NCBI GenBank assembly: GCA_948469885.1
Contig: CAOKMT010000021.1
Location: 1-33,020, forward strand
Reading direction: 5' to 3'
Source: an uncultured Sporosarcina sp.
GTDB lineage: Bacteria > Bacillota > Bacilli > Bacillales_A > Planococcaceae
Length of the DNA stretch: 33,020 nt
Shown one piece after another: positions 7,006 to 23,949 of this stretch. The notes under the pieces are model-generated. The model was given only the letters and a program-made list of their open reading frames with translations, was not told where the DNA came from and searched no databases. The position numbers and the translations under genes were made by a program. Within the stretch, counting starts at the first letter, position 1; every line of letters begins with the position of its first letter.

Positions 7006-10000
7006 ATGGAGAAAATCAATAAAATCCTTGTTGCAAATCGTGGGGAAATTGCAATAAGGATATTTCGTGCTTGTACAGAATTGGAAATCGCGACAGTCGG
7101 TATTTATTCAACAGAAGATAGTGGGTCATTCCATCGTTATAAAGCGGATGAATCGTACCTTGTGGGGGCGGGGAAAAATCCGATTGATGCTTATTTGGAC
7201 ATTGAAGGCATTATCTCTATTGCAAAAGATAGCGGGGCGGATGCCGTCCATCCGGGGTACGGTTTCTTGGCGGAAAACGCACAGTTTGCAAGACGCCTTG
7301 AAGAGGAAGGAATTATTTTCATAGGGCCGACATCTGCACATCTTGATATGTTTGGCGATAAAGTAAAAGCGCGAGAACAGGCAGTTGCAGCTGGTTTGCC
7401 AGTCATTCCAGGAAGCGATGGTCCTGTTTCTTCGGCCAAAGAAGTCGCAACATTCGGTAATTTGAATGGTTATCCAATCATGATTAAAGCTTCACTCGGC
7501 GGCGGTGGACGTGGGATGCGGATCGTGCATTCCGAAGAAGAAGTTTTTCAAGCGTTTGAACGCGCACAATCGGAAGCGAAAGCTGCTTTCGGATCGGATG
7601 AAATGTACGTTGAGAAATTCATCGATAAGCCGAAGCATATTGAAGTTCAAATACTTGGAGATTCGCACGGGAATGTCGTTCATCTTTACGAGCGGGATTG
7701 TTCAATCCAACGGCGTCATCAAAAAGTGGTGGAAATTGCTCCGTCCATTTCTTTAGATGATCAATTGCGCGAAGAGATTTGCAATGCAGCCGTAAAGTTG
7801 ATGGAAAATATTGACTACATCAATGCGGGCACTGTTGAATTTCTCGTAGCTGATGGGGCATTTTATTTTATCGAAGTGAACCCTCGGATCCAGGTGGAAC
7901 ATACGATTACGGAAATGGTGACAGGAATTGATATTGTGCACTCACAAATACATATTGCGGATGGGAAAAGTATGCATAGTGAACAAGCACAAATACCGTT
8001 ACAAAACGATATTCCATTGTTCGGATTTGCCATCCAATCTCGGGTGACGACAGAAGATCCGTTGAATGATTTCATGCCGGATACTGGGAAGCTTGCGGTG
8101 TATCGGTCAGGCGGTGGTTTCGGTGTACGGCTGGATGCCGGAAATGGTTTCCAAGGTGCAGTCATTACACCGCATTATGATTCATTGCTCGTCAAAGTAT
8201 CGACATGGGGTATGACGTTCAAGGAAGCTGCGGCTAAAATGGACAGAAACTTACAAGAATTCAGGATACGCGGTATTAAAACGAATATTCCTTTTCTCGC
8301 CAATGTCGTCAAACATAAGAATTTTCTCGTAGGCGACTACGATACGGGTTTCATCGACTCGACACCTGAGTTATTTTTGTTTCCGACTCGTCTTGATCGG
8401 GGAACAAAAATATTGAACTACATTGGTAATGTCACGATTAACGGGTTTCCTGGAATCGAAAAACAGTCAAAACCTGTATTCCATCCGGTGCGGAAGCCGT
8501 CTGTCGATTTAACGAAACAACCGATTCCAGGGACGAAACAAATTCTTGACGAAAGCGGTCCAGAAGGGCTCGTAAAATGGATCCAAAAACAAGATGATGT
8601 GCTACTGACAGATACGACTTTTCGAGATGCCCATCAATCACTTCTTGCTACAAGGGTTCGTACAGCGGATATGACGGCAATCGCGTCTGAATCGGCAAGG
8701 CTTATGCCAGATCTGTTTTCCTATGAAATGTGGGGAGGCGCAACTTTCGATGTGTCATACAGATTTTTGAAAGAAAGCCCTTGGGACAGGCTCATTAAAC
8801 TACGCGAGCAAATTCCGAATGTACTATTCCAAATGCTTTTCCGTGGCGCGAATGCGGTAGGTTATACAAACTACCCTGATAATGTCATCCGGGAATTTGT
8901 GAAAAAGTCTTCAGAAGCCGGCGTCGATGTATTCCGGATCTTTGATAGCTTGAACTGGATTAAAGGAATGGAAGTCGCAATTGATGCAACGCGTGAAGTG
9001 GGTAAGGTTGCGGAAGCGTCCATTTGTTATGCTGGTGATATTCTTGACGATTCGCGTGATAAATATACGATTGGTTATTACAAAGAAATGGCGAAAGAGT
9101 TGGAAGCGGCAGGGGCTCACATACTTTGTATTAAAGATATGGCGGGCTTGTTGAAACCGGAAGCGGCATATAGGCTTATTTCTGAACTGAAAGACACAGT
9201 GGAGTTACCGATCCACCTTCATACCCATGATACGAGTGGCAACGGAATTTATACGTATGCACGCGCGATCGAAGCGGGTGTGGATATCGTCGATACAGCG
9301 CTTGGTTCGATGGCCGGACTGACGTCCCAGCCATCCGCAAGCTCTTTATACTATGCGATGAAGGGCAATGAGCGCAACGTTCGTGCAGATGTTCAAGCAT
9401 TGGAGGATTTATCGTATTATTGGGAAGATGTCCGCGGTTACTATCAGCATTTTGAAAGCGGTATGAAGAGTCCCCATACGGAAATCTATGTCCATGAAAT
9501 GCCGGGGGGCCAATATTCGAACTTGCAGCAGCAGGCAAGAGCTGTCGGTCTTGGTGGGCGATGGGAAGAAGTTAAAGCGATGTATTCCCGTGTGAACTTG
9601 TTGTTCGGGGACGTTGTGAAAGTGACACCTTCTTCGAAAATCGTAGGCGATATGGCACTTTTCATGGTTCAAAATGATCTTGATGAAAAAACGGTATTAA
9701 CGCGAGGCCAATCGATCGATTTTCCCGATTCGGTTATTGAATACTTCGCAGGATACATCGGGCAACCGTACGGTGGTTTCCCCGAAGAGCTTCAGCAAGT
9801 GGTGTTGAAAGACCGCGAAGCAATTACCGTTCGCCCAGGTGAACTGATGGAAGAAGTGGATTTTGAAGCGGTGCGAAACCAATTGAATGAAGAGTTGGGG
9901 CGCCCGGTTACGAGTCACGAAGTGCTGTCACACGCACTTTACCCTCAAGTGTTCAAGGAGTACTCAACGACGTACAAAGAGTTCGGTGATGTGTCAGTCA

Positions 10001-10443
10001 TCGAGACGCCGGAGTTCCTTTATGGAATGCGCCTTGGGGAAGAGATAGAGGTGGAAATTGAAAAAGGGAAGACCCTCATTGTAAAACTTGTTTCCATCGG
10101 CGAGCCTCAATCGGATGCAACACGTGTCATTTACTTTGAATTGAATGGGCAACCGCGTGAAATCATTATTGAAGACGTCAATGCAGAATCGGTTGTCGTT
10201 CGAAAAGTGAAGGCGGACCCTTCGAAAGAAACGCATATCGCAGCGACAATGCCGGGAACGGTATTGAAAGTAGCAGTTGCAGAAGGAGCAAAAGTGAAAA
10301 GAGGCGAGCATCTTCTGATCACGGAAGCTATGAAAATGGAGACGACAATCCAAGCACCATTCGATGGAGTAGTGAAACAGATTTATGTATCAGCAGGGGA
10401 ATCGATTGCAACAGGGGATCTCCTGATCGAATTGAAAGAATAA
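7006..10443 (+). CDS. pycA: Pyruvate carboxylase
   Basis: An 1145-residue biotin enzyme making oxaloacetate from pyruvate, bicarbonate and ATP (anaplerosis), the standard length for the single-chain alpha4 type. The biotin carboxylase domain covers about residues 1-455, with the glycine-rich ATP loop GGGGRGMR at 165 and FIEVNPRIQVEHT near 290. The carboxyltransferase domain starts near residue 535 (DTTFRDAHQSLLATRVRT; metal-binding HLHTHDT near 745). The C-terminal carrier domain has EAMKMET with biotinyl Lys at 1110, 36 residues from the end. ATG start with AGGGGAG upstream; 14 bases after ftsW, so co-transcription is likely. Confidence 0.98.
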   Translation: MEKINKILVANRGEIAIRIFRACTELEIATVGIYSTEDSGSFHRYKADESYLVGAGKNPIDAYLDIEGIISIAKDSGADAVHPGYGFLAENAQFARRLEEEGIIFIGPTSAHLDMFGDKVKAREQAVAAGLPVIPGSDGPVSSAKEVATFGNLNGYPIMIKASLGGGGRGMRIVHSEEEVFQAFERAQSEAKAAFGSDEMYVEKFIDKPKHIEVQILGDSHGNVVHLYERDCSIQRRHQKVVEIAPSISLDDQLREEICNAAVKLMENIDYINAGTVEFLVADGAFYFIEVNPRIQVEHTITEMVTGIDIVHSQIHIADGKSMHSEQAQIPLQNDIPLFGFAIQSRVTTEDPLNDFMPDTGKLAVYRSGGGFGVRLDAGNGFQGAVITPHYDSLLVKVSTWGMTFKEAAAKMDRNLQEFRIRGIKTNIPFLANVVKHKNFLVGDYDTGFIDSTPELFLFPTRLDRGTKILNYIGNVTINGFPGIEKQSKPVFHPVRKPSVDLTKQPIPGTKQILDESGPEGLVKWIQKQDDVLLTDTTFRDAHQSLLATRVRTADMTAIASESARLMPDLFSYEMWGGATFDVSYRFLKESPWDRLIKLREQIPNVLFQMLFRGANAVGYTNYPDNVIREFVKKSSEAGVDVFRIFDSLNWIKGMEVAIDATREVGKVAEASICYAGDILDDSRDKYTIGYYKEMAKELEAAGAHILCIKDMAGLLKPEAAYRLISELKDTVELPIHLHTHDTSGNGIYTYARAIEAGVDIVDTALGSMAGLTSQPSASSLYYAMKGNERNVRADVQALEDLSYYWEDVRGYYQHFESGMKSPHTEIYVHEMPGGQYSNLQQQARAVGLGGRWEEVKAMYSRVNLLFGDVVKVTPSSKIVGDMALFMVQNDLDEKTVLTRGQSIDFPDSVIEYFAGYIGQPYGGFPEELQQVVLKDREAITVRPGELMEEVDFEAVRNQLNEELGRPVTSHEVLSHALYPQVFKEYSTTYKEFGDVSVIETPEFLYGMRLGEEIEVEIEKGKTLIVKLVSIGEPQSDATRVIYFELNGQPREIIIEDVNAESVVVRKVKADPSKETHIAATMPGTVLKVAVAEGAKVKRGEHLLITEAMKMETTIQAPFDGVVKQIYVSAGESIATGDLLIELKE

Positions 10444-10455
10444 AATCCAAATAGA

Positions 10456-10498
10456 AAACACCCGGAAAGCGAAGTTATTTCGATTTCTGGGTGTTTTT
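10456..10498 (+). terminator. Intrinsic terminator of pycA
   Basis: AACACCC-GGAAA...TTTC-GGGTGTT stem with a small internal CG/CG extension, then five T. Confidence 0.88.
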
Positions 10499-10534
10499 AT
10501 GATTCAGAAGTAGAAAATAGGGAAAGTATAGAAG

Positions 10535-10566
10535 AAAAAGGCCACTCGGAAATGAGAGGCCTTCCC
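10535..10566 (-). terminator. Intrinsic terminator of ctaA
   Basis: On the minus strand, AAGGCC and GGCCTT flank an imperfect inner stem and are followed by TTTTTCTTC, 7-38 bases after the ctaA stop. Confidence 0.8.
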
Positions 10567-10572
10567 TTTCTT

Positions 10573-11484
10573 TTATCCTTTGCGGTTTCGGGAAACGAGT
10601 AACACGAAATATGTCAGAAGACCGAACAACAAAGTGATAAATAATGAATGAAGCAATGAAACGTACAAATTCAATCTTGTCAAGACGACTAGCATCCCGG
10701 AAATGACTTGAAGTGTAACAAGGATAAAGGCGGTGATCCAGCCCCAATAAAACACGCGTTGTTTCTTGTAACGTCGAATGGCATAGATCATAATGTAACC
10801 GATCCAAAGGAAAATGAGTGCCGCTGCCGTGCGATGTCCCATTTGTACCCACTCGTAAAGGTTTGTCGGAAGGGTGAAAATCTCATCGTTTCGACAGAAA
10901 GGCCAGTCGCGGCAAATCAGACCCGAATCGGTATGTCGGACGAGTGCGCCAGAATAGACAACCACATAAGAATAAATGGAGACGCCGATCGTGTGCCATG
11001 TCAGTCGCTTGTCAATTTGTACACGTTCTGCATCAAATTTCTGATCGACTTCAAAGATGAGTAATGTCAAAAGGAAAACAGATGCAAAAGAGATGAGTGA
11101 CATACCGAAATGGAGTGCTAAGATGAAATCGCCTTGCCCCCATAGAACTTGGGCCGCTCCAATTAAAGCTTGTAATACTAGGAAAAAGACAGCCATCACT
11201 GACAAAAACTTAGTTTCTCGGATATGTCCAAGTGCTTTCCACGACCAAACGGCCAAAACGACGATAAAGATGCCGACTGCACCAGTTACAAGGCGGTGGG
11301 AAAACTCGATGAGCACTTCGGTCGTAATTTCATCTGGAATCAGTTGCCCATTACAGCCAGGCCAGTGCCGACCGCAACCCATTCCACTATCCGTTTTCGT
11401 CACGAGGGCACCACCGAGCAGGATAAGTAGCATCCCGATTGTCGAAGCGACGGCGAACCACTTTAAATATTTGTTATATCGCAA
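10573..11484 (-). CDS. ctaA: Heme A synthase CtaA
   Basis: A 303-residue membrane protein with eight predicted helices that converts heme O to heme A for cytochrome oxidase. The extracytoplasmic Cys pair of the type found in B. subtilis is present (CGRHWPGC), as is a second pair (CRDWPFC). Candidate heme-ligand histidines lie in EFSHR, ALHFG, MGHRTA and LLHSLF. A GTG at 11493 overlaps the only Shine-Dalgarno-like sequence (GTAGGTG), so the TTG at 11484, 6-7 bases downstream, is a better start and matches the N-terminus of known CtaA. It is divergent from ctaB, as in B. subtilis. Confidence 0.95.
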   Translation of the reverse strand: MRYNKYLKWFAVASTIGMLLILLGGALVTKTDSGMGCGRHWPGCNGQLIPDEITTEVLIEFSHRLVTGAVGIFIVVLAVWSWKALGHIRETKFLSVMAVFFLVLQALIGAAQVLWGQGDFILALHFGMSLISFASVFLLTLLIFEVDQKFDAERVQIDKRLTWHTIGVSIYSYVVVYSGALVRHTDSGLICRDWPFCRNDEIFTLPTNLYEWVQMGHRTAAALIFLWIGYIMIYAIRRYKKQRVFYWGWITAFILVTLQVISGMLVVLTRLNLYVSLLHSLFITLLFGLLTYFVLLVSRNRKG

Positions 11485-11582
11485 AAATGTCACCTACTTC
11501 ATTAAATGTTGACCAATCAACAAGGTCCCCGCTTTTTTGACTATAACGAATCACTCAAAAAAAAACAATGACTAGCAATTTG

Positions 11583-11607
11583 AAAAGCCATGAACAAAAG
11601 GCTTTTT
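11583..11607. other. Hairpin in the ctaA-ctaB intergenic region
   Basis: AAAAGCC and GGCTTTT flank a 10-base loop and are followed by further T on both strands. It could be a weak terminator or attenuator in either leader. It overlaps the first ResD-like box. Confidence 0.5.
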
Positions 11608-11666
11608 CACAAATTGTTCATAAAAAAGACCTTTTAACTTCACAAATGATTTACACAAATGATTTA
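11606..11666. promoter_or_regulatory. Cluster of ResD-box-like sites upstream of ctaB/ctaA
   Basis: TTCACAAAT occurs at 11606-11614 and 11639-11647, and TACACAAAT at 11652-11660. The reverse complement, (A)TTTGTGAA, resembles the B. subtilis ResD consensus TTTGTGAAT; the third copy has one mismatch. The last two boxes lie in a perfect 13-base tandem repeat (11641-11653, 11654-11666). ResD activates ctaA and ctaB in B. subtilis, so the context fits; binding is inferred. The rest of the 11485-11806 gap shows no other clear signal. Confidence 0.5.
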
Positions 11667-11806
11667 CTATAGGGAGTGATGTGGGCTAGCTATGTCGAAT
11701 CTTCGTGCCAGGTGAAGAGAATTTTGTATAAGTATAGAAATACCTCGCGAATTTCGATATAGTGAAGTATAGGAATGTCATTTATTACTTTGAGGGGAGG
11801 GATAAC

Positions 11807-12724
11807 ATGTCAAACGGTCGTGCAATATCGACGTCTGTTGAATCGGGCTCCGTTACAACATCTGCATACAAAGATTTCTTGGCGCTCATAAAAATTGGTA
11901 TCGTCAATTCCAATTTGATTACGGTGTTCACCGGTTTGTTCTTAGCTATGCAGTTAAGCGGTATGAACTTTCTACATAATCTCGATATACTCTTTTTCAC
12001 ATTAGGAGGATCAGCACTTATTCTTGCAGGTGCCGCGGCGCTTAACAATTTGATTGACCGCGATATTGATCCGATTATGTCGAGAACAAAGTCAAGACCG
12101 ACTGTGACGGGTCGATTTAAAGCACCGCCTGTATTGGCACTTGCGCTCACTTTCATCGTAATAGGTGAAGTATTATTGTTTTCCGCATCGAGCACAGCAG
12201 GTCTATGGGGACTTGCAGGAGTCTTCAGCTATGTAGTACTCTATTCAATGTGGTCGAAGCGCAAGCACGTGAGTAATACGGTCGTCGGGAGTATCTCGGG
12301 TGCGATTCCGCCTTTAATCGGATGGGCGGCAGTAGAGCCGGCACTTGGAGCAGGCGCGTGGGCGCTGTTTCTCATTATGTTCGTTTGGCAACCACCGCAT
12401 TTTTATGCGCTTGCCATGCGTCGTACGGAAGAATACCGAGCTGCAAACATTCCGATGTTGCCAGTCGTGAAAGGTTTCGAAAGAACAAAGAAGTCGATGT
12501 TAGGTTGGGTTCTTGTGCTTTTTCCGTTACCGTTTCTATTGATGGAACTTGGCAATGGTTTTCTTTTATTGGCCACCGTGCTGAATATCGGTTGGCTATA
12601 CTTAGCACTTAGAGGGTTTAGAGCGAAAGATGACTTGAAATGGGCAACAGGCATGTTTGTCTATTCATTGAACTACATGACCATTTTATTTGTTTCCATG
12701 ATTATCTTCTCGTTATTTGTTTAA
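11807..12724 (+). CDS. ctaB: Protoheme IX farnesyltransferase CtaB
   Basis: A 305-residue UbiA-superfamily enzyme that farnesylates heme B to heme O, the step before CtaA. The first Asp-rich motif is NNLIDRDIDPIMSRTKSRP near residue 80. The second conserved region, with RRTEEYRAANIPMLPVV, is near residue 205. About eight to nine transmembrane helices are predicted. ATG 11807 has a strong GGGGAGGG Shine-Dalgarno 6-8 bases upstream, so the upstream in-frame GTG at 11762 is not used. It is first in the ctaBCDEF group, although hairpins after its stop may attenuate read-through into ctaC. Confidence 0.96.
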   Translation: MSNGRAISTSVESGSVTTSAYKDFLALIKIGIVNSNLITVFTGLFLAMQLSGMNFLHNLDILFFTLGGSALILAGAAALNNLIDRDIDPIMSRTKSRPTVTGRFKAPPVLALALTFIVIGEVLLFSASSTAGLWGLAGVFSYVVLYSMWSKRKHVSNTVVGSISGAIPPLIGWAAVEPALGAGAWALFLIMFVWQPPHFYALAMRRTEEYRAANIPMLPVVKGFERTKKSMLGWVLVLFPLPFLLMELGNGFLLLATVLNIGWLYLALRGFRAKDDLKWATGMFVYSLNYMTILFVSMIIFSLFV

Positions 12725-12762
12725 CCGGATTTGAAATCCGGTATAATGACGCCGCAGCGTCA
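12724..12762 (+). other. Two consecutive hairpins after ctaB
   Basis: ACCGGATTT-G-AAATCCGGT is a perfect 9-bp inverted repeat (12724-12742) starting in the ctaB stop codon. It is followed by TGACGC-CGCA-GCGTCA (12747-12762). Neither has a T tract, so these are more likely mRNA processing or stability elements than terminators. The second resembles the LE palindrome of the repeat family. Confidence 0.6.
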
Positions 12763-12866
12763 TCAATCAATCGGAATTCTTTCTTTTGACAGGAATTCAT
12801 ATAGAGGGACGGGCAGTTCCCAATGACTTAGAAATTAATTTTCAGAAAGAGAGGTATGATTAGGCG

Positions 12867-13955
12867 ATGATGAAAGGACTAAAGAAGTGGCACTTCTTTT
12901 CTCTGCTAGCAGCTCTGACCGTGTTCCTTTCAGGATGCGGCCAAAAGGAGCTATCCACGCTTCTTCCAGCAGGTGAAGTTGCTCGAGACCAATTCAATTT
13001 GCTGCTGCTATCTTCGGGAATCATGTTATTCGTAATCCTAGTAGTTGTGATCATCTACGTAATTGCTCTCGCTCGTTTCAGACGATCGAAATTAGGTGAG
13101 GATTATATGCCTAAACAAGTAGAAGGTAGTCACACACTTGAGCTTGTTTGGACGGTCATCCCGATTCTACTCGTACTGTTACTTGCTGTTCCGACAGTTT
13201 ACTACACGTATAAACTAGGTAACGTGTCGGCGATGGGCGCGGTGGACGATGATGGAAATGCTGAAAACCTTGTCGTTGATGTAACGGCAAAACTGTACTG
13301 GTGGGAGTTTGAATACCCAGACTTAGGCATCGTAACAGCGCAAGAGCTTGTTGTTCCGATGGATGAGAAAGTATACTTCAACTTGGCTGCTGCTGACGTG
13401 AAGCACTCATTCTGGATCCCGGCAGTCGGCGGTAAGCTAGATAATAACGTTGAAAACGTGAACAAGTTTTACTTGATCTTTGAAGAGGACTCCAAAGATC
13501 TCAAAGACGGTGTGTTCTACGGAAAATGTGCGGAGCTTTGCGGACCGTCACACGCACTTATGGATTTCAAAGTAAAAACAATGCCACGTGCAGAGTTTGA
13601 CAACTGGGTTGCAGCAATGCAAGCGACTGAAGGCAACACAGCGGATCCTGCATCTGCAGACCAAGGTGAAGTGTTGTTTGAGCAAAGCTGTATCGGATGT
13701 CACGCAGTAAGCGGTGTCGGCCAAGGTCCTATGGGTGTCAATGAAGCTGGGGCAATGGGTCCTAACTTGACAGCTTTCGGTGACCGTAACCGAGTAGCAG
13801 GATTTATGGATCACACGGAAGAATCTATAAAAGAGTGGATTGTAGACACGCAAAAACATAAGCCGGGTAACTTGATGCCTTCGTTCGATCATTATACTGA
13901 TGATGAACTCGACGCGATTGCAACTTATCTGATGGGCTTAACTGTTGAAAAGTAA
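12867..13955 (+). CDS. ctaC: Cytochrome c oxidase subunit II with fused cytochrome c (caa3)
   Basis: A 362-residue lipoprotein precursor. The signal peptide ends in a lipobox (FLSGC, Cys near residue 27). Two transmembrane hairpin helices follow (about 45-70 and 90-110). The CuA cupredoxin domain has a His in DVKHSFW and CAELCGPSHALM (Cys, Glu, Cys, His, Met ligands). The C-terminal cytochrome c domain has CIGCH near residue 276 and the likely axial Met in NLMPSF. The fused c domain makes this a caa3-type oxidase that takes electrons from cytochrome c. Adjacent ATGs at 12867 and 12870 can both start; the Shine-Dalgarno is AGAGAGG. Confidence 0.97.
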   Translation: MMKGLKKWHFFSLLAALTVFLSGCGQKELSTLLPAGEVARDQFNLLLLSSGIMLFVILVVVIIYVIALARFRRSKLGEDYMPKQVEGSHTLELVWTVIPILLVLLLAVPTVYYTYKLGNVSAMGAVDDDGNAENLVVDVTAKLYWWEFEYPDLGIVTAQELVVPMDEKVYFNLAAADVKHSFWIPAVGGKLDNNVENVNKFYLIFEEDSKDLKDGVFYGKCAELCGPSHALMDFKVKTMPRAEFDNWVAAMQATEGNTADPASADQGEVLFEQSCIGCHAVSGVGQGPMGVNEAGAMGPNLTAFGDRNRVAGFMDHTEESIKEWIVDTQKHKPGNLMPSFDHYTDDELDAIATYLMGLTVEK

Positions 13956-13992
13956 AGTTTTGTAACTTGAATTTGCAGAGGAGGTAAAAACT

Positions 13993-15867
13993 TTGAGTAC
14001 AGCTGCTCAAAAGAAAGGATTTGGCGCCACGTTATGGGAATGGTTGACAACAGTTGACCATAAGAAGCTCGGAATTCTTTATTTCCTAGGTGGAGGATTC
14101 TTCTTCGTCCTTGGTGGTATAGAAGCATTATTAATTCGTATCCAGCTTCTTGTCCCAAATAACGATTTCGTTAGTGCGGGTCTGTTTAACCAACTGATCA
14201 CGATGCACGGGACGACGATGATATTCTTGGCTGCCATGCCTATATTATTCGGATTTATGAACGTGATTATGCCACTACAAATTGGTGCGCGTGACTTGGC
14301 GTTCCCATTCCTTAACTCATTGGGTTTTTGGATGTTCATGCTTGGAGGAATTTTCTTAAATATTTCTTGGTTCACGGGGCAAGTACCTGACGCAGGATGG
14401 ACGTCATATACTTCCCTCGCGATTACTTCCGAAGGTCACGGAATGGATTACTATGCAATCGGATTACAGATTGCAGGTGGTGGTACGCTTATGACGGGGA
14501 TTAACTTCCTTGTTACAATTATTAATATGCGTGCACCAGGTCTTACTTACATGCGGATGCCTTTATTCACGTGGACTACACTCATTGCTTCGGCAATGAT
14601 TTTGTTCGCATTCCCTCCATTGACAGTCGGTCTTTTCTTCTTGACATTTGACCGGTTGTTTGGCGGAAACTTCTTTGATCATGAGATGGGTGGAAATACG
14701 ATTATTTGGGAGCATATTTTCTGGATTTTCGGTCACCCTGAAGTTTACATCCTGATTTTGCCGGCATTCGGTATTTTCTCAGAGATCTTCCCGGTGTTCG
14801 CCCGTAAGCGTCTATTCGGTTATACATCTATGGTATTCGCTACGGTATTGATCGGGTTCCTTGGGTTCATGGTTTGGGCTCACCATATGTTTACGGTAGG
14901 TCTTGGACCAACAGCGAACGCAATTTTCGCGGTAGCGACGATGGCAATTGCTGTACCAACAGGGGTTAAGATTTTCAACTGGCTTCTCACGATGTGGGGA
15001 GGAAGTATTAAAATTACAACACCGATGCTTTACGCAATTGGGTTTATCCCTTCATTCGTTATGGGTGGAGTAACAGGAATCATGCAAGGGGCAGCGCCAC
15101 TTGACTATCAATTGCACGATTCATACTTTATCGTTGCTCACTTCCACTACGTAATTGTTGGGGGAGTTGTGCTGGCAGTTTTGGCGGCGACGCACTATTG
15201 GTGGCCGAAAATGTTCGGTACAATGTTACATGAAGGTCTTGGAAAAGTAACGTTTTGGTTTTTCTTCATCGGATTCCATATGACGTTCCTTATCCAGCAC
15301 TGGCTAGGCTTCTGGGGCATGCCGCGTCGAGTATTCACATACATGGACGGGCAAGGCTGGAATACGGCAAACGCAATTAGTACAGCTGGAGCGGCGTTGA
15401 TGGGAATTGGGGTAATCGTCCTCGTGATTAATGCCATCATGACTACTGTTAAAAACGAACGCGTTGGAAATGACCCTTGGGGTGACGGACGTACGCTTGA
15501 GTGGGCGATTCAATCACCTCCACTTTTCTATAACTTCCCACAGACACCGCTTGTCCGCGGACTTGATACTGTGTGGATTGAAAAACAGGAAGGGAATGAA
15601 TCAGGCATTACACCGGCTGTTCCTTTGCAGGACATTCACATGCCGAACGGTTCAATCATTCCACTTCTAATGTCACTCGGTCTGTTCATTGCAGGTTTCG
15701 GTGCTATGTACCGGCTTGAAGCAAGCTGGGGATTACCTGTTCTTGTAGGTGGATTGGCGTTCACGTTCCTAACAATGTCTATACGTTCAATTAAAGACGA
15801 TTTAGGATACTACGTGACAAAAGAAGAAATTATGAATGATTTAAAACGTGAAGGGGGCCGAAAGTAA
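13993..15867 (+). CDS. ctaD: Cytochrome c oxidase subunit I
   Basis: A 624-residue heme-copper oxidase core subunit with 12-14 transmembrane helices. It carries the low-spin heme a, heme a3 and CuB centre. Visible motifs are the early heme His in ITMHGTTMIF, GHPEVYILILPAFG (CuB His and cross-linked Tyr), WAHHMFTVG, and HDSYFIVAHFHYV (a3 and a ligands). The start is TTG 13993 behind a strong AGAGGAGGT. It lies 37 bases after ctaC and overlaps ctaE by one base. Confidence 0.98.
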   Translation: MSTAAQKKGFGATLWEWLTTVDHKKLGILYFLGGGFFFVLGGIEALLIRIQLLVPNNDFVSAGLFNQLITMHGTTMIFLAAMPILFGFMNVIMPLQIGARDLAFPFLNSLGFWMFMLGGIFLNISWFTGQVPDAGWTSYTSLAITSEGHGMDYYAIGLQIAGGGTLMTGINFLVTIINMRAPGLTYMRMPLFTWTTLIASAMILFAFPPLTVGLFFLTFDRLFGGNFFDHEMGGNTIIWEHIFWIFGHPEVYILILPAFGIFSEIFPVFARKRLFGYTSMVFATVLIGFLGFMVWAHHMFTVGLGPTANAIFAVATMAIAVPTGVKIFNWLLTMWGGSIKITTPMLYAIGFIPSFVMGGVTGIMQGAAPLDYQLHDSYFIVAHFHYVIVGGVVLAVLAATHYWWPKMFGTMLHEGLGKVTFWFFFIGFHMTFLIQHWLGFWGMPRRVFTYMDGQGWNTANAISTAGAALMGIGVIVLVINAIMTTVKNERVGNDPWGDGRTLEWAIQSPPLFYNFPQTPLVRGLDTVWIEKQEGNESGITPAVPLQDIHMPNGSIIPLLMSLGLFIAGFGAMYRLEASWGLPVLVGGLAFTFLTMSIRSIKDDLGYYVTKEEIMNDLKREGGRK

Positions 15868-16493
15868 TGGATTTAAATAGGAAATTTACCCCTGAGACGT
15901 GGCCGGAGCATCCGGAAACGGCAACTTTAGAAGCGAAAAATAAGTTTGTTGGTTTCTGGCTTTTCCTTGGCGGAGAAGTTGTGTTATTCGCAACATTATT
16001 TGCGACTTACTTAGCATTGAAAAACAAAGGACCTTCGGGTATGGAGTTTTCAACGCAAGGTCTATATGAATTGCCACTTGTCTTCATCATGACGATGTTG
16101 CTACTTACATCATCATTGACGAGTGTATATGCGATGTACCATTTGAAGAATTACGATTTCAAGAAAATGCAGTTATGGCTTGGTATTACAGCATTTCTAG
16201 GTCTTGGATTTTTAATGCTTGAAGTATACGAGTTCGTACATTATGCACAAGAAGGCTTTACGTTCAATAACAGTGCGTTCAGTTCTGCATTTTACACGCT
16301 CGTTGGGACACACGGATTCCACGTAGCGATCGGGCTTGTTTGGATTACGCTACTTATCTTCCGTAATTCAAAGCGTGGGTTGAACTTGTATAATGCGACA
16401 AAATATTATACATTTTCGTTGTACTGGCACTTCATTGACGTTATCTGGGTATTCATCTTCTCAGTAGTCTACTTGATGGGAGTGGTAGGTTAA
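15867..16493 (+). CDS. ctaE: Cytochrome c oxidase subunit III
   Basis: A 208-residue, five-helix heme-copper oxidase subunit III of the short bacterial type. Typical features are FWLFLGGEVVLFATLFATYL in helix 1, THGFHVAIGLVWI (conserved His-Gly-Phe-His) and YYTFSLYWHFIDVIWVFIF. Its ATG shares one base with the ctaD stop (TAATG), giving translational coupling; GAAGGGGG precedes it. Confidence 0.97.
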   Translation: MDLNRKFTPETWPEHPETATLEAKNKFVGFWLFLGGEVVLFATLFATYLALKNKGPSGMEFSTQGLYELPLVFIMTMLLLTSSLTSVYAMYHLKNYDFKKMQLWLGITAFLGLGFLMLEVYEFVHYAQEGFTFNNSAFSSAFYTLVGTHGFHVAIGLVWITLLIFRNSKRGLNLYNATKYYTFSLYWHFIDVIWVFIFSVVYLMGVVG

Positions 16494-16494
16494 T

Positions 16495-16857
16495 ATGGCG
16501 GAATTTGAAATTTACGAAAAATCACCTGCTGAGTATAATCTCATACAGAGGCGTGCGAAAAGAGGTATGCGCAGTCAAGTAATCATGTTTTCCTTGATGA
16601 TCTTCTTGACGCTCATTTCCTTCACGATGGTGACAGCGTTTCAAGCAGACGTAATGGGATTCTCTAAATACTTGGTGATTCCAGTCTTGCTGTTGTTTGC
16701 AGGAATTCAAGTTGCTTTGCAACTGTATTATTTCATGCATATGAAAGAAAAAGAGCATGGCTTTGCGGCGATGTTCATATATGTCGGTGCCTTGATTGCA
16801 TTCTTGACGGTTCTTACTTTCTTGACAATCGTCTGGTGGTACCCGATTTACGTATAA
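16495..16857 (+). CDS. ctaF: Cytochrome c oxidase subunit IVB
   Basis: A 120-residue protein with three transmembrane helices. The motif QLYYFMHMKEKEHG near residue 83 is the conserved loop of bacterial subunit IV (caa3_CtaF family). It is one base after the ctaE stop, so tightly coupled, and last before a strong terminator. Confidence 0.95.
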   Translation: MAEFEIYEKSPAEYNLIQRRAKRGMRSQVIMFSLMIFLTLISFTMVTAFQADVMGFSKYLVIPVLLLFAGIQVALQLYYFMHMKEKEHGFAAMFIYVGALIAFLTVLTFLTIVWWYPIYV

Positions 16858-16899
16858 AAAATGGCCTGTGGAAGCACTTTCTTCCACAGGCTATTTTTA
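16857..16899 (+). terminator. Intrinsic terminator of the ctaBCDEF group
   Basis: GCCTGTGGAA and TTCCACAGGC form a perfect 10-bp stem with an 8-base loop, an A-rich upstream flank and a downstream TATTTTT. Confidence 0.92.
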
Positions 16900-16999
16900 T
16901 GGTTCTATAATATGTATGGGGGTATTACGAAAATTGTGAAGAGAGTTCTTTACTTCTTGAACTTTCTATTGTTTTCTTGAGATTGTCATACTTCGTCCA

Positions 17000-17028
17000 T
17001 TGAGTTATGAATAACTTCCTTTTATAAT
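17000..17028 (+). promoter_or_regulatory. SigA-type promoter for ctaG
   Basis: TTGAGT (17000-17005), 17-base spacer, TATAAT (17023-17028), 32 bases before the ctaG ATG. CtaG therefore appears to be separately transcribed. Confidence 0.7.
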
Positions 17029-17060
17029 GGGAATAGATTGAATTGGAGGAGTGACGGCTT

Positions 17061-17984
17061 ATGCCATTAAGTATATTCGGATTTCAAGCATTATGGAGTC
17101 CTTGGTTTTTCCTTACGATAGTCCTCGTGGTTTTGTTATATTTTCTTATTACATTTAAATGGCGACACCGTTTTGAAAATTCCGAGCCTGTGACGAAGAA
17201 ACAAATCGCTTATTTTTTACTTAGCATGTTGTTTCTCTACATCTTAAAAGGCTCACCTGTCGATCTATTAGGTCATATCTTGTTCTCTGTCCATATGGTA
17301 CAAATGGCGTTTCTTCTGTTGCTTGTTGCGCCGTTTCTCATTTTAGGTGTTCCGAATTGGATATGGGCGACGGTCTTTAAAGTTAAAATCATTGATAAAG
17401 TCTTCCGTTTGTTCACAAAACCGGTAATCAGCTTGCTGGTATTCAGCATGATGTTTTCAATTTACCATTACCCAATGGTACTTGATAATATAAAAATGAG
17501 TTTAGTACTTCATGCGTTATTTACAGTAACGATTTTTATGTCTGCTATATTCCTTTGGTGGCCAATTCTCAATACATTGGAAGGACATCCTAGAATCCAC
17601 GGTTTGAAGAAAATCGGTTACGTCGTTCTGAGCGCTATTTTGATCACACCAGCTTGTTCGTTAATCATTTTTGTTGACGTTCCGGTATATGAAACATACG
17701 TAAGCGGTGAAGCTTGGTTGAAAGCGATGGAACTTTGTGTTCCAGCTGGGACACTAGCTGGCTTAGCAGGCCTCGGTGTTTCAGGCCCTGAACTGTTTAC
17801 GGATATGCCTACTATACAAGATCAGCAACTAGGTGGTATCTTAATGAAAATCGCGCAGGAGGCAGTCTATGTTATTGTCATCGGTAGGATTTTCTTTTCA
17901 TGGGCTAGAGAAGAGCGAGAAAACGCAGATGAAATTACGCGGCAGGATTTACTGGAACACCAGAAAATGACGACGCATGGCTAA
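17061..17984 (+). CDS. ctaG: caa3 oxidase assembly factor CtaG
   Basis: A 307-residue polytopic membrane protein (about seven helices) of the CtaG_Cox/YtkA-neighbour family needed for CuB-containing caa3 assembly in B. subtilis. Family features include HILFSVHMVQMAFLLLLVAP near residue 75 and MFSIYHYPMVLDN near 140; these histidines may handle copper. The ATG has GGAGGAG 8 bases upstream. It has its own promoter and terminator rather than reading through from ctaF. Confidence 0.93.
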   Translation: MPLSIFGFQALWSPWFFLTIVLVVLLYFLITFKWRHRFENSEPVTKKQIAYFLLSMLFLYILKGSPVDLLGHILFSVHMVQMAFLLLLVAPFLILGVPNWIWATVFKVKIIDKVFRLFTKPVISLLVFSMMFSIYHYPMVLDNIKMSLVLHALFTVTIFMSAIFLWWPILNTLEGHPRIHGLKKIGYVVLSAILITPACSLIIFVDVPVYETYVSGEAWLKAMELCVPAGTLAGLAGLGVSGPELFTDMPTIQDQQLGGILMKIAQEAVYVIVIGRIFFSWAREERENADEITRQDLLEHQKMTTHG

Positions 17985-18035
17985 TAGTTGGCGTGATCTA
18001 GGACAGGAGAGTTGCTTGTCCATTGGGTCCAAAAT

Positions 18036-19795: not shown

Positions 19796-19971
19796 TGACA
19801 ACATTGTGTCTATAAGATATGAGCATAAATAAATTGTAAATATTGATTGCAAATTTGAAGAAGATGACTTCATGGATTTGTAGTTAGCTAATTATAACTT
19901 CAGCATAGAAAGAAATTTAGGTAAGCGGAATACGAAAATCCAATAAAGCATATTTGAAAGCAGGGAGAATG

Positions 19972-21081
19972 TTGAAAATATTCGTGCGAGTGATGATCTT
20001 GTTTATCCTTGTCCTTTTAGTCTTATATTATACCGATAACCGGGTCAAAGAGAATAAGCCGCTACAATCGCCTGTTAAACAAGGGACGGCGGTTCCAGCA
20101 CCCGACAAAGGAATAGGCGCCGCCATTCCGCAAACATCTCGTCCAGAAAAAGGTTTGTCCACTTTTGTCGGTGAACAATCGACAATCTTGCTTGAAGAAA
20201 TAGGGGAGCCTGATCGTGTGGAACCTTCGGGGTTTGGCTATGATTGGTGGGTCTATTCAAGCGATCGAAATATTATGGTCGGCGTCTCAGAAGACGGTCT
20301 GATCAATCAAATGTTTACCGCCGATCTTGCTTCGGATATTACCCCTTTTAAAATCGGGCAAGCGATTAGTGAGATTTACCGGTTTACGATTGTCGGGTCG
20401 GAAATTGACGTTGTCATAGAAGACAACGTATATACTTTTTCTTTAAATAGTGAAGATTTGCAAACACGACTCCTCATTATTTACCAAGATCTGTATGCGC
20501 AATTGTATATAGACAGTGTGGAAGGAGAGCTTGAAGCTGTTCGTTTCATTGACCCGGAGACACTCGTTCTTCATCAGCCGTATGAGATGGCTTATATGGG
20601 AGAGTTGCTCGTCTCTGCTCCCCGGTCTTCGACATTCCAGCAAGAGGTCGATCGGACCGTAGAACGGCAGATTTTTGAGCTGACGAATATTTATAGGGAA
20701 CGGCGTGGTTTGCCGACTCTTCAAAAAGAAGATTCACTTACTATATTAGCGCGAGAGCATAGCAAGGAAATGGCGCTGGAGAACTACCTTTCAAACGAAT
20801 CACCTGTTTCCGGAAGCTTAGCGGAACGATTAAAAAATGCAATGATTGAGCAGAGGAAGGCCGGGGAAAATATTGCATCCGACTATGTGGATGCAATTGA
20901 AGCTGTCCATGGATGGTTGAACTCCTCTGCTCACCGAAACGTATTGCTTGATGCAGACTTTACGCACTTAGGTACAGGTGCATATGGAAATTACTATACA
21001 CAAATTTTAATCCAAAAAGCCGATACGGGGGAAGAAGTTGATCCCTCTACTGAGAAAGACGCCGATTCGGCCGACGAATGA
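19972..21081 (+). CDS. ylbC: Membrane-anchored CAP-domain protein YlbC
   Basis: A 369-residue protein: an N-terminal transmembrane anchor (about residues 5-25), a linker, a CAP-associated domain (about 60-205) and a C-terminal CAP/SCP domain (about 230-355). The CAP domain shows REHSKEMALENYLS, a GENIA motif and WLNSSAHRNVLL, the conserved His and Glu positions of the family. Bacterial CAP proteins are extracytoplasmic; this one is probably tethered outside the membrane. AGGGAG (19962-19967) gives 4 bases to TTG 19972 and 1 base to ATG 19969. A TTG at 19954 has no ribosome site. The start is uncertain by a few codons. Confidence 0.88.
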   Translation: MKIFVRVMILFILVLLVLYYTDNRVKENKPLQSPVKQGTAVPAPDKGIGAAIPQTSRPEKGLSTFVGEQSTILLEEIGEPDRVEPSGFGYDWWVYSSDRNIMVGVSEDGLINQMFTADLASDITPFKIGQAISEIYRFTIVGSEIDVVIEDNVYTFSLNSEDLQTRLLIIYQDLYAQLYIDSVEGELEAVRFIDPETLVLHQPYEMAYMGELLVSAPRSSTFQQEVDRTVERQIFELTNIYRERRGLPTLQKEDSLTILAREHSKEMALENYLSNESPVSGSLAERLKNAMIEQRKAGENIASDYVDAIEAVHGWLNSSAHRNVLLDADFTHLGTGAYGNYYTQILIQKADTGEEVDPSTEKDADSADE

Positions 21082-21096
21082 GGGATGTTGCTCCAT

Positions 21097-21858
21097 TCAT
21101 ATAAGCTTGTTAGACGACGTCCCCGCATCGGGTAAAATCCATGTGCCGCTTTCCTCACCCGCGATACCTCTTACATAAAGAGGGGTCGCGGTTTTTTTTG
21201 CATATAATGCGGCACGCATTTGAATGATCGGTTTTTCACAATTAAGAAAAGGGATGAATTTTTCATAATACAATTCATCCAGTTTGACATAATTAGAAAC
21301 GACTGCGGGATCACCTGACAAGACACCTGGCACGTCTTTGAAAAACTCCGCATGTGTGGCATTCAGTTCAGCAGCTAGGGCAACGGCCGTCAAATCGCTA
21401 CCGCCTCTACCTAAAGTCATAACATTTCCGGATTCATCCATTCCTTGAAATCCAGGGATAATAATACAATCGATTTCTTCAAGACAGTCTAGTATTGTAG
21501 CAGTGTCAATATGGACGATGACTGCATCGCCATAGTCACCGGCGGTTAAAATGCCCGCTTGTGTGCCATGAAGGATTTTGGTCTTCACACCGGCTTCGTT
21601 CAGTTCCGCGGATAGGACAGACGAGGCAATCAGCTCCCCACAAGACGCCACAAGGTCTTTGGCCGCTTCGTCATGGGAAAATGCCTTCGTCAAGTTGAGA
21701 AGGCTGTCCGTAGCATAAGGGTCGCCAAGGCAGCCGATCGCGGAGACGACGACGACAACTTTATCTGACTGTGCGATGCCGTCCCGTATATGCGTAATAC
21801 ATTTCGCTCGCGTTTGTTCATCTTTCATAGCAATTCCACCAAATTTTTGTACGATCAT
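21097..21858 (-). CDS. Aspartokinase-like kinase lacking ACT domains
   Basis: A 253-residue amino-acid-kinase domain closest in my memory to DapG-type aspartokinases (VVVVVSAIGCLGDPYATDSLL, CGELIAS, GRGGSDLTA, DVPGVLSGDPAVV). The catalytic Lys of KFGG and the Asp of GGSD are present. The family KFGGTS is KFGGIA here, so the usual Thr-Ser pair is lost. Aspartokinases are about 400 residues with two C-terminal ACT domains. This one stops right after the kinase core, so classic feedback control by lysine, threonine or DAP would be absent. It is divergent from murE, with 109 bases between them. GGGAG precedes ATG 21858. It could make aspartyl phosphate for DAP or dipicolinate, or phosphorylate another substrate. 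Confidence 0.75.
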   Translation of the reverse strand: MIVQKFGGIAMKDEQTRAKCITHIRDGIAQSDKVVVVVSAIGCLGDPYATDSLLNLTKAFSHDEAAKDLVASCGELIASSVLSAELNEAGVKTKILHGTQAGILTAGDYGDAVIVHIDTATILDCLEEIDCIIIPGFQGMDESGNVMTLGRGGSDLTAVALAAELNATHAEFFKDVPGVLSGDPAVVSNYVKLDELYYEKFIPFLNCEKPIIQMRAALYAKKTATPLYVRGIAGEESGTWILPDAGTSSNKLI

Positions 21859-21878
21859 CAAGCTCCCAACTTTCTTCG

Positions 21879-21907
21879 TGACATTCGTTACACCTTCTTC
21901 ATACGAT
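21879..21907 (+). promoter_or_regulatory. Sigma-E/sigma-K-like promoter for murE
   Basis: TGACATT (21879-21885), 14 bases, CATACGAT (21900-21907). The -10 matches the sigma-E consensus CATACAHT at 7 of 8 positions with exact spacing; the -35 matches KMATATT at 5 of 7. The same site also fits sigma-K (AC, 17 bases, CATA-nnn-TA). Consensus sequences are from established B. subtilis work; use here is inferred. Confidence 0.5.
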
Positions 21908-21934
21908 AAAGTATGTTCGTTATCAATATATTCG
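21908..21934 (-). promoter_or_regulatory. Sigma-E/sigma-K-like -10 for the kinase gene
   Basis: On the minus strand CATACTTTA (start at 21915) fits the sigma-K -10 (CATA-nnn-TA) and 7 of 8 sigma-E positions. An AC dinucleotide lies 18 bases upstream; the sigma-E -35 is poor. It abuts the murE -10, so CATAC...GTATG forms a palindrome at 21900-21915. Confidence 0.4.
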
Positions 21935-21967
21935 TACGCAGTAAAAATGTTCGGGAAGGGGAGTCAT

Positions 21968-23422
21968 GTGCTGCTTCTACCGGAATTATTGAAGGATTGG
22001 CCATGTACGGTCATTGGCGGGAAGTTTAGGGTCGGCATTACGGGAATAACGGAAGATTCGAGGAACGTGCAACCCGGTTATATATTTGTTGCGAGACGGG
22101 GGGCTAAAGAAGATGGGACCTTTTTTATAGAAGAAGCAATTCAGCGAGGAGCGGCAGCAATTGTTGTCGATAGAACTGAAATAGGCGATTTATCGAAAGA
22201 TGTGCCGCTCATCACTGTGCCCGATTGTAGGCAATTCTTATCTCATGCGAGTGCTACACTTGCGGGAAATCCTTCAGAACAGTTGACGATCATTGCGGTA
22301 ACGGGGACGAATGGTAAGACGACGGTCAGCCATTTTATCGGACAATTATTGAAGAAACTCGGCGTTCGTACAGCAGTCATTGGGACGACAGGGATTTTTA
22401 TCGAAGGACATCGTGTGGATTATGAAGTACCACAAATGACGACTTTACCAGCAGAATATTTTCATCCTTTATTAAAAGATTGTGTAGCGCAAGGTGTCAC
22501 CCATGTCGTGCTTGAGGCTTCTTCACTTGGCTTATCGACCTCTCGACTGGCGCATTGTCAGATCGATGTTGGCATATTGCTGAATATCGGTGAAGATCAT
22601 TATGATGAACATGGCGGTAAACAATTTTATATAGAAGCGAAAAGCAAACTTTTGAAGATGGCGGATAAAGTGATTGTCAATCGGGATGATGCCATTTGTG
22701 TTGACATGGCGACAGCATCTGCACGCTCATGTGTTTTCTTCGGGACACATCATCTATCGGATATTTGTTTGCGGGCGGAAGACGGGCAGGTGGTCATTGC
22801 AACGGAAAAGGAGAATGGTCCGTTGCTGTTATCGACGCTCGGTGATTTCAATTGGGCGAATGCGGCGGCTGCACTCAGTGCATTGCTCGTTCTATCACAT
22901 ACACTGGAGGAACTTTTGCCGCATACGGCTTCTTTGGTGTTACCGGAAGGGAGAATGGAAAGGTTGGAAGAAGAGGGGATAACGGTCGTCATCGACTATG
23001 CCCATACGCCGGATGCACTTGAAGCCGTCCTCTCCTCTCTTTCCAAGACGTGTAGTGGAAAGTTAACGACCGTTTTCGGTTGCGGAGGAGAGCGCGATAA
23101 AGGGAAGCGGGGAGAGATGGGCGAACTTGCAGTGCGCTATTCTACCAATGTCCTTGTAACGTCAGACAATCCGCGAAAAGAAGATCCACTCGCAATTATT
23201 TCCGATATTGTTATCGGATTCGCCGATACGTGTACACCGATTGAAATAGAACCAGACAGAAGTCTTGCAATACGCAAGGCGATCACAGGTGCGTGCGCAG
23301 GCGATGTCGTCTTAATCGCCGGGAAAGGGCATGAAAAAACCCAACATACAGCCAAGGGCGTTTTTCCATTTTCAGATTTGGAAGTAGCGAAGGCAATATT
23401 GAGTGAATTGAATAGGAAATAG
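21968..23422 (+). CDS. murE: UDP-MurNAc-tripeptide synthetase MurE, meso-DAP type
   Basis: A 484-residue Mur ligase, close to the usual 490. The N-terminal UDP-MurNAc-dipeptide domain contains DSRNVQPGYIFVARRG. The ATPase domain has TGTNGKTT at 112-119, and FNWANAAAALSAL precedes the C-terminal domain. DNPR at 400-403 and GKGHE near 455 are the residues that bind meso-diaminopimelate in DAP-type MurE; Lys-type enzymes differ there. The GTG at 21968 follows AAGGGGAG; longer in-frame starts read into the kinase gene. It is not in a dcw cluster (no murF, mraY or ftsL beside it), so it is probably a second murE. It could add DAP for spore cortex. Confidence 0.9.
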   Translation: MLLLPELLKDWPCTVIGGKFRVGITGITEDSRNVQPGYIFVARRGAKEDGTFFIEEAIQRGAAAIVVDRTEIGDLSKDVPLITVPDCRQFLSHASATLAGNPSEQLTIIAVTGTNGKTTVSHFIGQLLKKLGVRTAVIGTTGIFIEGHRVDYEVPQMTTLPAEYFHPLLKDCVAQGVTHVVLEASSLGLSTSRLAHCQIDVGILLNIGEDHYDEHGGKQFYIEAKSKLLKMADKVIVNRDDAICVDMATASARSCVFFGTHHLSDICLRAEDGQVVIATEKENGPLLLSTLGDFNWANAAAALSALLVLSHTLEELLPHTASLVLPEGRMERLEEEGITVVIDYAHTPDALEAVLSSLSKTCSGKLTTVFGCGGERDKGKRGEMGELAVRYSTNVLVTSDNPRKEDPLAIISDIVIGFADTCTPIEIEPDRSLAIRKAITGACAGDVVLIAGKGHEKTQHTAKGVFPFSDLEVAKAILSELNRK

Positions 23423-23505
23423 CAACCGACGAAACGAAAAGCAAATGATGCACGCGGTCCAGAAAATCTGTTATGATGAACAAGAGGAATGGAGGAGATA
23501 TATTT

Positions 23506-23949
23506 ATGATGATGACTGATGAATGGCTCACCATCATCGAACATGCGGAAGAACTGACCGACATTCTGCTCTCTTCAGAAGTGGTAGAAGCGTACAAGAA
23601 AGCCCGCGAAGCTGTCTATTCGGACGAAGTCCTTATAAAGTCTATAAAAGAGTTTACGGATATGAAAGAGCGTTACGAGGAAGTACAACGATTTGGACGC
23701 TATCATCCGGATTATCATATAGTGATGAAAGAAATTCGTTTACAGAAAAGGGCTCTCGATTTGAATGAGCAAGTCGCAGCCCTTCGGCTTGCCGAAAACG
23801 ATGTGCAACAAATGTTCGACGAGGTGAGTTCGATTATCGCCAAATCCGTATCGGAATCCGTGAAAGTTCCGGTCGGCAATGCATTTTTCTCAAATTCTTC
23901 ATGTAGCAGCGGCTGTGGTTCCGGCGGCAGTTGTTCTTGCTCCGCCTAA
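23506..23949 (+). CDS. ricF: RicF (YlbF), Fe-S regulatory complex subunit
   Basis: A 147-residue helical YlbF/YmcA-family protein. The central helical region (EVVEAYKKAREAVYSDEVL ... YEEVQRFGRYHPDYH) is typical. The C-terminal Cys-rich tail (CSSGCGSGGSCSCSA) is characteristic of RicF. In B. subtilis RicF, RicA and RicT form a complex binding [4Fe-4S] clusters and FAD that assists RNase Y in mRNA maturation and affects competence, sporulation and biofilm. GGAGGAG is 8 bases from ATG 23506; an in-frame ATG at 23473 has no ribosome site. Confidence 0.93.
   Translation: MMMTDEWLTIIEHAEELTDILLSSEVVEAYKKAREAVYSDEVLIKSIKEFTDMKERYEEVQRFGRYHPDYHIVMKEIRLQKRALDLNEQVAALRLAENDVQQMFDEVSSIIAKSVSESVKVPVGNAFFSNSSCSSGCGSGGSCSCSA

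Follow-up and report, generated by a model that had tools for sequence, protein, structure and literature searches.

The window (the whole 33,020-nucleotide stretch of DNA that was analysed) carries a murE gene, here called MurE2, divergent from a gene for an aspartokinase-like kinase core, and the two lie between the genes for a YlbC-like CAP-domain protein and YlbF. The features of this locus are as follows.

19954..21081, plus strand: YlbC-like CAP-domain protein (PF14504, PF00188), conserved left flank
21097..21858, minus strand: kinase core resembling an aspartokinase but with no ACT domain (253 aa, ATG at 21858; PF00696), adjoining MurE2
21863..21867, minus strand: ribosome binding site of the kinase core, GGGAG
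21879..21885, plus strand: -35-like TGACATT of MurE2
21900..21908, plus strand: -10-like CATACGATA of MurE2 (CATAnnnTA), 14 nt past the -35
21915-21907, minus strand: alternative -10 of the kinase core, CATACTTTA
21925..21932, minus strand: candidate -10-like AATATATT of the kinase core, 13 nt past the -35; pattern in 37/50 core upstreams
21946..21952, minus strand: candidate -35-like GAACATT of the kinase core
21956..21963, plus strand: ribosome binding site of MurE2, AAGGGGAG
21968..23422, plus strand: MurE2, UDP-MurNAc-tripeptide ligase, probably meso-DAP-adding (484 aa, GTG start; from profiles, motifs, ribosome binding site and relatives)
23473..23949, plus strand: YlbF (PF06133), conserved right flank

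The likely start of MurE2 is the GTG at 21968, preceded by AAGGGGAG, as judged from the ribosome binding site and a comparison with relatives, and this corrects an earlier reading. In the profile search the product scored 438.8 bits against TIGR01085 (cut-off 257.3) and 433.2 bits against NF001126, the 2,6-diaminopimelate ligase model (cut-off 373), and it contains the ATP loop TGTNGKT together with SDNPRKED and GKGHE. These scores and motifs bear out the original prediction of a solitary murE with DNPR and GKGHE, and its position amid the genes for the CAP protein and YlbF agrees with the claim that it lies outside the dcw cluster. The same prediction had taken both motifs as DAP-binding residues; both are present, but GKGHE is not diagnostic, because the second murE product described below (MurE1) has it as well, and the sole motif that tells MurE2 from MurE1 is DN-R versus DDPR.

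MurE2 has the CAP protein on one side and YlbF on the other in all 21 of the loci L040-L060 and in 17/20 MurE2 loci from other genera, the exceptions being two loci of genus g5 with no YlbF match within the stretch and one of g10 with no CAP match. Judged from ORF sizes only, the gene order of window positions 7006-18000 presumably resembles the pycA-cta-ylb region of B. subtilis.

Conserved elements between MurE2 and the kinase core

The 22 intergenic regions compared show strong conservation, and each of the two genes has an element directed towards it, TGACATT-N14-CATACGAT towards MurE2 and GAACATT-N13-AATATATT towards the core. CATAnnnTA, a pattern picked after the alignment was viewed, was counted upstream of MurE2 in 54/60 rows, of MurE1 in 1/50, of the core in 24/50 and of same-genus spoIVA in 16/16 (dinucleotide-shuffle means of 2.9, 2.4, 2.0 and 0.7, respectively); for some rows of g3 the match that was counted is not the aligned element, and only one of the two g11 rows has it. 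A spaced form, TG[ACT]C with CATA 15-18 nt further on, was found in 52/60 MurE2 upstreams and 0/50 MurE1 upstreams, and CATAnnnTA is kept in all 12 MurE2 rows from the six genera that lack the core. The -10 elements of mother-cell type predicted for the shared promoter region are indeed there and are far commoner than in shuffled sequence, the label 'mother-cell-type' referring to the sigma-E/K consensus.

We relied on counts of the -10 pattern because a general promoter score told the sets apart only weakly for sigma E: compared with mononucleotide shuffles (mean/shuffle), the generic sigma-E score was 14.44/13.40 for MurE2, 13.17/12.89 for MurE1, 14.48/13.26 for the core and 14.12/13.41 for spoIVA. 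Separation was clearer with a sigma-K-form score (14.25/12.25 for MurE2, 12.26/12.05 for MurE1) and slight with a sigma-A score (10.90/10.49 for MurE2); a sigma-A-like site overlaps the MurE2 -10 element. As the -10 of the kinase gene, the minus-strand CATACTTTA was considered and dropped in favour of the better-fitting AATATATT/AATACATT/CATACAGT element, for which 13/50 core upstreams, including all those of g5 and g11, gave no match at the spacing tested.

The second murE and the substrate motif

The source genome (88% complete, 225 contigs) holds a further murE, truncated at the end of contig C46, with an aldehyde dehydrogenase gene upstream. In L111 and L121, relatives of this aldehyde dehydrogenase gene are found in the neighbourhood of MurE1, and there prfC (encoding peptide chain release factor 3; match over cut-off) comes after MurE1. 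Two murE places occur in 61/61 same-genus genomes, the source genome included; MurE1 is full-length in 59 of them, and a partial MurE1-like match was obtained in the source genome and in G022. A search of the genome for a second murE, which had been proposed as a check of the original prediction, found one, cut short by the contig end, so that the ligase half of the prediction withstands the refutation that a sole murE copy would have brought. DDPR was read in 30/30 same-genus MurE1 loci (L010-L039); the DDPR place of the source genome itself is unreadable because the contig ends there.

The motif was compared in an alignment of 130 rows, 65 of MurE2 and 65 of the other class. All 65 MurE2 rows have DN-R (60 DNPR, three DNAR, one DNCR and one DNSR) and 64 have GKGHE. 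In the other class, DDPR is present in 50/50 readable prfC-type MurE1 rows, and the rest are the truncated copy of the source genome and 14 other MurE-like types from g2, g4 and g19 (five DDLN, one DDRN, one DKLE and seven KDVV). PDB alignments place DNPR in 1e8c and 2wtz, which are named DAP ligases, and DDPR in 4bub, named an LD-lysine ligase. According to PMC9434261, T. maritima MurE, which has DDPR, accepts DAP in vitro, and in PMC3829189 the S. aureus MurE motif is DNPA and its A409R variant gained no DAP activity. Because of these results the DN-R/DDPR motif supports specificity without proving it; taken by itself the motif is not sufficient.

In the MurE tree, 31 MurE2 rows form one clade (support 97/80), G079 excepted, whose MurE2 lies outside it at the end of a very long branch. 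MurE1 clusters with a MurE of family f9 (L169), whose gene also adjoins prfC, and the dcw-order MurE of other families is closer to MurE1 than to MurE2; dcw order was confirmed at L165 (MraY, SpoVD-type PBP) and judged by eye at the other loci. Further MurE-like types were observed. A separate type in g2 and g4 (L131, L133, L135, L139, L143 and L146) has DDLN (five rows) or DDRN (one row) at the DNPR place and forms its own clade, joined by two more distant rows. Another family (L132, L136, L138, L142, L145, L147 and L148) consists of open frames of 518-543 aa with ITATNGKTS and no DNPR-like motif, and genomes of the families f6, f13, f16 and f30, from other Bacilli at the class level, have two MurE-like genes each. 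Since g4 keeps MurE2 beside the DDLN-type MurE, the vegetative ligase in g2 and g4 seems to have been replaced independently by the DDLN type.

Distribution of MurE2 and SpoIVA in the family

The family was sampled with 151 genomes (nearest named relative Filibacter tadaridae, NCBI family Caryophanaceae), in which the MurE2 search left a score gap, 291 versus 231 bits, that served as the threshold of presence. MurE2 lies above this gap in 113/151 genomes from 12 genera (counted by hand). SpoIVA, used as a stand-in for sporulation ability, was matched in 117/151 genomes (112 over cut-off), and a match was obtained in all 113 MurE2 genomes, 111 over cut-off and two partial (the source genome and G152). 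Among the 38 genomes without MurE2 above the gap, SpoIVA matches are absent too from 34, belonging to six genera; the other four are of one genus, g2, and all have SpoIVA matches. Outside g2, then, MurE2 occurs wherever SpoIVA is matched and is missing wherever it is not. Fisher's test gave 1e-29 over genomes and 2.6e-4 over genera, on samples that are not independent. On the MurE1 tree (29 rows) the distribution of SpoIVA needs five changes, which MurE2 shares by construction of the table because its genus distribution is identical, and the well-supported branches hold only three independent pairs (sign test p 0.25).

Within g2, G079 has an intact SpoIVA (470 bits) with a strongly diverged MurE2, a 439-aa open frame with GKGNE that reaches 273 bits in all, above the TIGR01085 cut-off, and adjoins a 240-aa kinase core. 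In G061, G096 and G111 SpoIVA is broken and MurE2 is reduced to fragments, and fragments of the kinase core are found in G096 and G111. All of these remnants and copies of MurE2 sit in the gap bounded by the CAP gene (ylbC) and ylbF. Some genomes that lack MurE2 hold extra MurE-like genes; G066, for example, has two besides MurE1. With dpaA as a second marker, dpaA-like matches of at least 40 bits were obtained in 16 of the 18 genomes searched and of 20-22 bits in the non-spore genomes G066 and G143, and none of the 18 passes the family cut-off; nothing is therefore concluded on the absence of dapG beside dpaA.

Our data suggest that MurE2 is very probably the sporulation-dedicated UDP-MurNAc-L-Ala-D-Glu:meso-diaminopimelate ligase of the family, serving the spore cortex; this confidence applies to MurE2 and not to the kinase core. 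Weighing against it are the insufficiency of the motif, the five MurE2 rows with DNAR, DNCR or DNSR, the low number of independent tree pairs, the extra MurE-like genes in genomes that lack MurE2, the overlapping sigma-A-like site and the weak separation by the generic sigma-E score. Were MurE2 instead a spare or stationary-phase MurE with no cortex role, its link to sporulation would reflect the shared ancestry of the sporulating lineages, a reading to which the small number of independent tree pairs and the sigma-A-like site overlapping the MurE2 element lend some weight; we consider it improbable, as the five tree changes and g2 go together, the three g2 genomes whose SpoIVA is broken still carry MurE2 fragments in the usual place, and the -10 element is common to MurE2 and spoIVA but not to MurE1. 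A recent arrival of MurE2 as foreign DNA with no tie to sporulation is very improbable. Its identity to MurE1 is about 31%, and in the midpoint-rooted tree it falls outside the other Bacilli MurE, as such an origin might leave it, but synteny contradicts this, as 11 of the 12 MurE2 genera keep both flanks and the remaining one keeps the CAP side, and so does the grouping of the MurE2 rows in one clade.

The kinase core and the proposed division of labour

The original prediction also described a divergent, DapG-like kinase core. The gene is divergent, and among NCBIfam models its product fits best the aspartate kinase NF006068, a model of the DapG type, but because it scores 235 bits against a cut-off of 474 the window kinase amounts to a core rather than a complete aspartokinase. 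It also stays below the cut-off of the aspartokinase model TIGR00657 (168.7 versus 208.7 bits), and its Pfam match is to PF00696 only, with no ACT domain. The core is present in 57 of the 113 MurE2 genomes, from six genera (g1, g3, g4, g5, g11 and g17), and absent from 56; six MurE2 genera lack it. When coordinates were compared one by one, it was divergent from MurE2 at a distance of about 100-200 nt in 57/57 genomes that have it, and its presence among MurE2 genera requires one change on the MurE1 tree (g4 lies outside that tree).

We surveyed residues in 52 distinct non-g2 core rows (237-256 aa, six genera), carrying over the numbering of E. coli AKIII by motif. The positions of Lys8, Ser39, Thr45 and Glu119 are kept in 52/52 rows and those of Arg198, Ser201 and Asp202 in 51/52, one row being masked. 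By sequence, the aspartate-binding residues (Thr45, Glu119, Arg198 and Ser201 of AKIII, with roles as given in PMC3195717 and PMC5481828) are present in the core. The catalytic-site list for AKIII in PMC3195717 includes Thr221, Asp222, Tyr227, Arg232, Lys257 and Val258. On this ATP side, Asp222 is kept in 52/52 rows and Val258 is I, V or L; Thr221 is replaced by K and Tyr227 by M or L in 52/52, the Arg232 position is R in 8/52, and the Lys257 position is P in 45/52, E, T, G or S in seven and never K. Common to 52/52 rows are GG-x-A for GGTS, KDVP for TDVD and the loss of Lys257. An apparent break in the L055 kinase was rejected, the stretch being masked N. Separately, aspartokinase matches to the ACT end of the profile only were observed in short open frames of 164 and 170 aa (G129:C1:3179309-3179776 and G095:C9:148236-148715), as if regulatory ends stood alone in two genera.

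The core might supply aspartyl phosphate to the DAP/dipicolinate branch without feedback through ACT domains, a role we hold possible at most, because six MurE2 genera lack the core and its ATP side is changed. As a feedback-insensitive aspartokinase it would raise the supply of DAP and dipicolinate in the mother cell, and this is a serious candidate that stops short of being probable: the best family models of the core are aspartate kinases, the seven AKIII positions from Lys8 to Asp202 are kept, ACT domains are lacking and the gene adjoins that of the DAP ligase in 57/57 genomes, but the Thr221, Tyr227, Arg232 and Lys257 positions are changed, six MurE2 genera manage without the core, and at least one full-length aspartokinase is already present in each of the 18 genomes searched. 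The combination of a kept aspartate side with identical ATP-side replacements in 52/52 rows of six genera would fit a regulatory protein that binds aspartate, or a kinase that uses a different donor or substrate, in either case acting on the supply of spore-wall precursors; we regard this repurposing as rather unlikely, as a lysine at the Thr221 position could replace Lys257 and a partner or target is yet to be named.

From the gene types, distribution, locus and conserved upstream elements, which are observed directly, we infer the substrates, timing and compartment of MurE2, the preferred reading being a cortex ligase. Growing cells would use MurE1, the DDPR-type enzyme encoded beside prfC, for a lysine-type or other non-DAP wall, and in two genera apparently a different, DDLN-type ligase. 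A promoter of sigma-E/K type would then switch on MurE2 in the mother cell, where its DNPR pocket would take meso-DAP so that the cortex is built from DAP precursors; the divergent core, where present, would most simply feed aspartyl phosphate into the DAP/dipicolinate branch, free of ACT-domain feedback. The original proposal was that the pair supplies both ligase and precursor for a switch from a Lys-type to a DAP-type wall. Its ligase half is supported by the second murE, the tracking of SpoIVA in 151 genomes, the g2 remnants and the promoter elements, whereas its precursor half is uncertain, as the core is tied to MurE2 in 57/57 genomes but six genera do without it and its ATP side is changed. 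We also entertain, as a doubtful extension, that the cortex is DAP-type throughout the family whatever the vegetative ligase (DDPR MurE1 or DDLN), by way of an ancient MurE2 under mother-cell control, and that the core, its nucleotide side rebuilt and its ACT domains absent, was drawn away from ordinary aspartokinase duty to regulate or provide the precursors of the spore wall.

Biochemical work half a century ago already described a switch in wall chemistry as growing cells turn to sporulation. In the literature searched, with most older work outside reach, no paper was found that assigns a gene for a sporulation DAP ligase; in the main text of a sporulation gene survey (PMC3533761), MurE, aspartokinase, dapG and diaminopimel do not occur, and a 1974 title cited in PMC5962572 concerns a meso-DAP peptidoglycan hydrolase that appears when B. 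sphaericus sporulates. With MurE2 the switch gains a gene and a regulatory site as candidates, along with a genetic record that spans the family and includes genomes caught losing spore genes together with the ligase. It becomes directly testable whether the cortex has to be of DAP type, and for what reason, and MurE2 offers a simple genome marker for it.

The closest known system is B. sphaericus, which has lysine in the vegetative wall and makes a DAP-type cortex on sporulation; a DAP-adding enzyme was reportedly found in sporulating Bacillus (Lysinibacillus) sphaericus by Tipper and Linnett in the 1970s, and to our knowledge this activity has no assigned gene. The likeness is that of a DAP ligase appearing with sporulation in a Lys-type organism; the difference is that an activity is known there, whereas MurE2 is a family of genes with a distribution, a locus and a putative promoter. 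MurE2 resembles 1e8c and 2wtz, presumably the housekeeping MurE of E. coli and M. tuberculosis, in belonging to the MurE family and in its DNPR and GKGHE motifs, but unlike them it is a second, spore-linked copy. The counterpart of 4bub (T. maritima), by its DDPR, is MurE1 and not MurE2, and the MurE of S. aureus, whose gene adjoins prfC, is likewise a counterpart of MurE1. The core resembles B. subtilis DapG, an aspartokinase whose gene adjoins those for dipicolinate synthase, in that its best family model is the aspartate kinase NF006068, and it differs from DapG in the lack of ACT domains, in its changed ATP side and in having murE2 as its neighbour.
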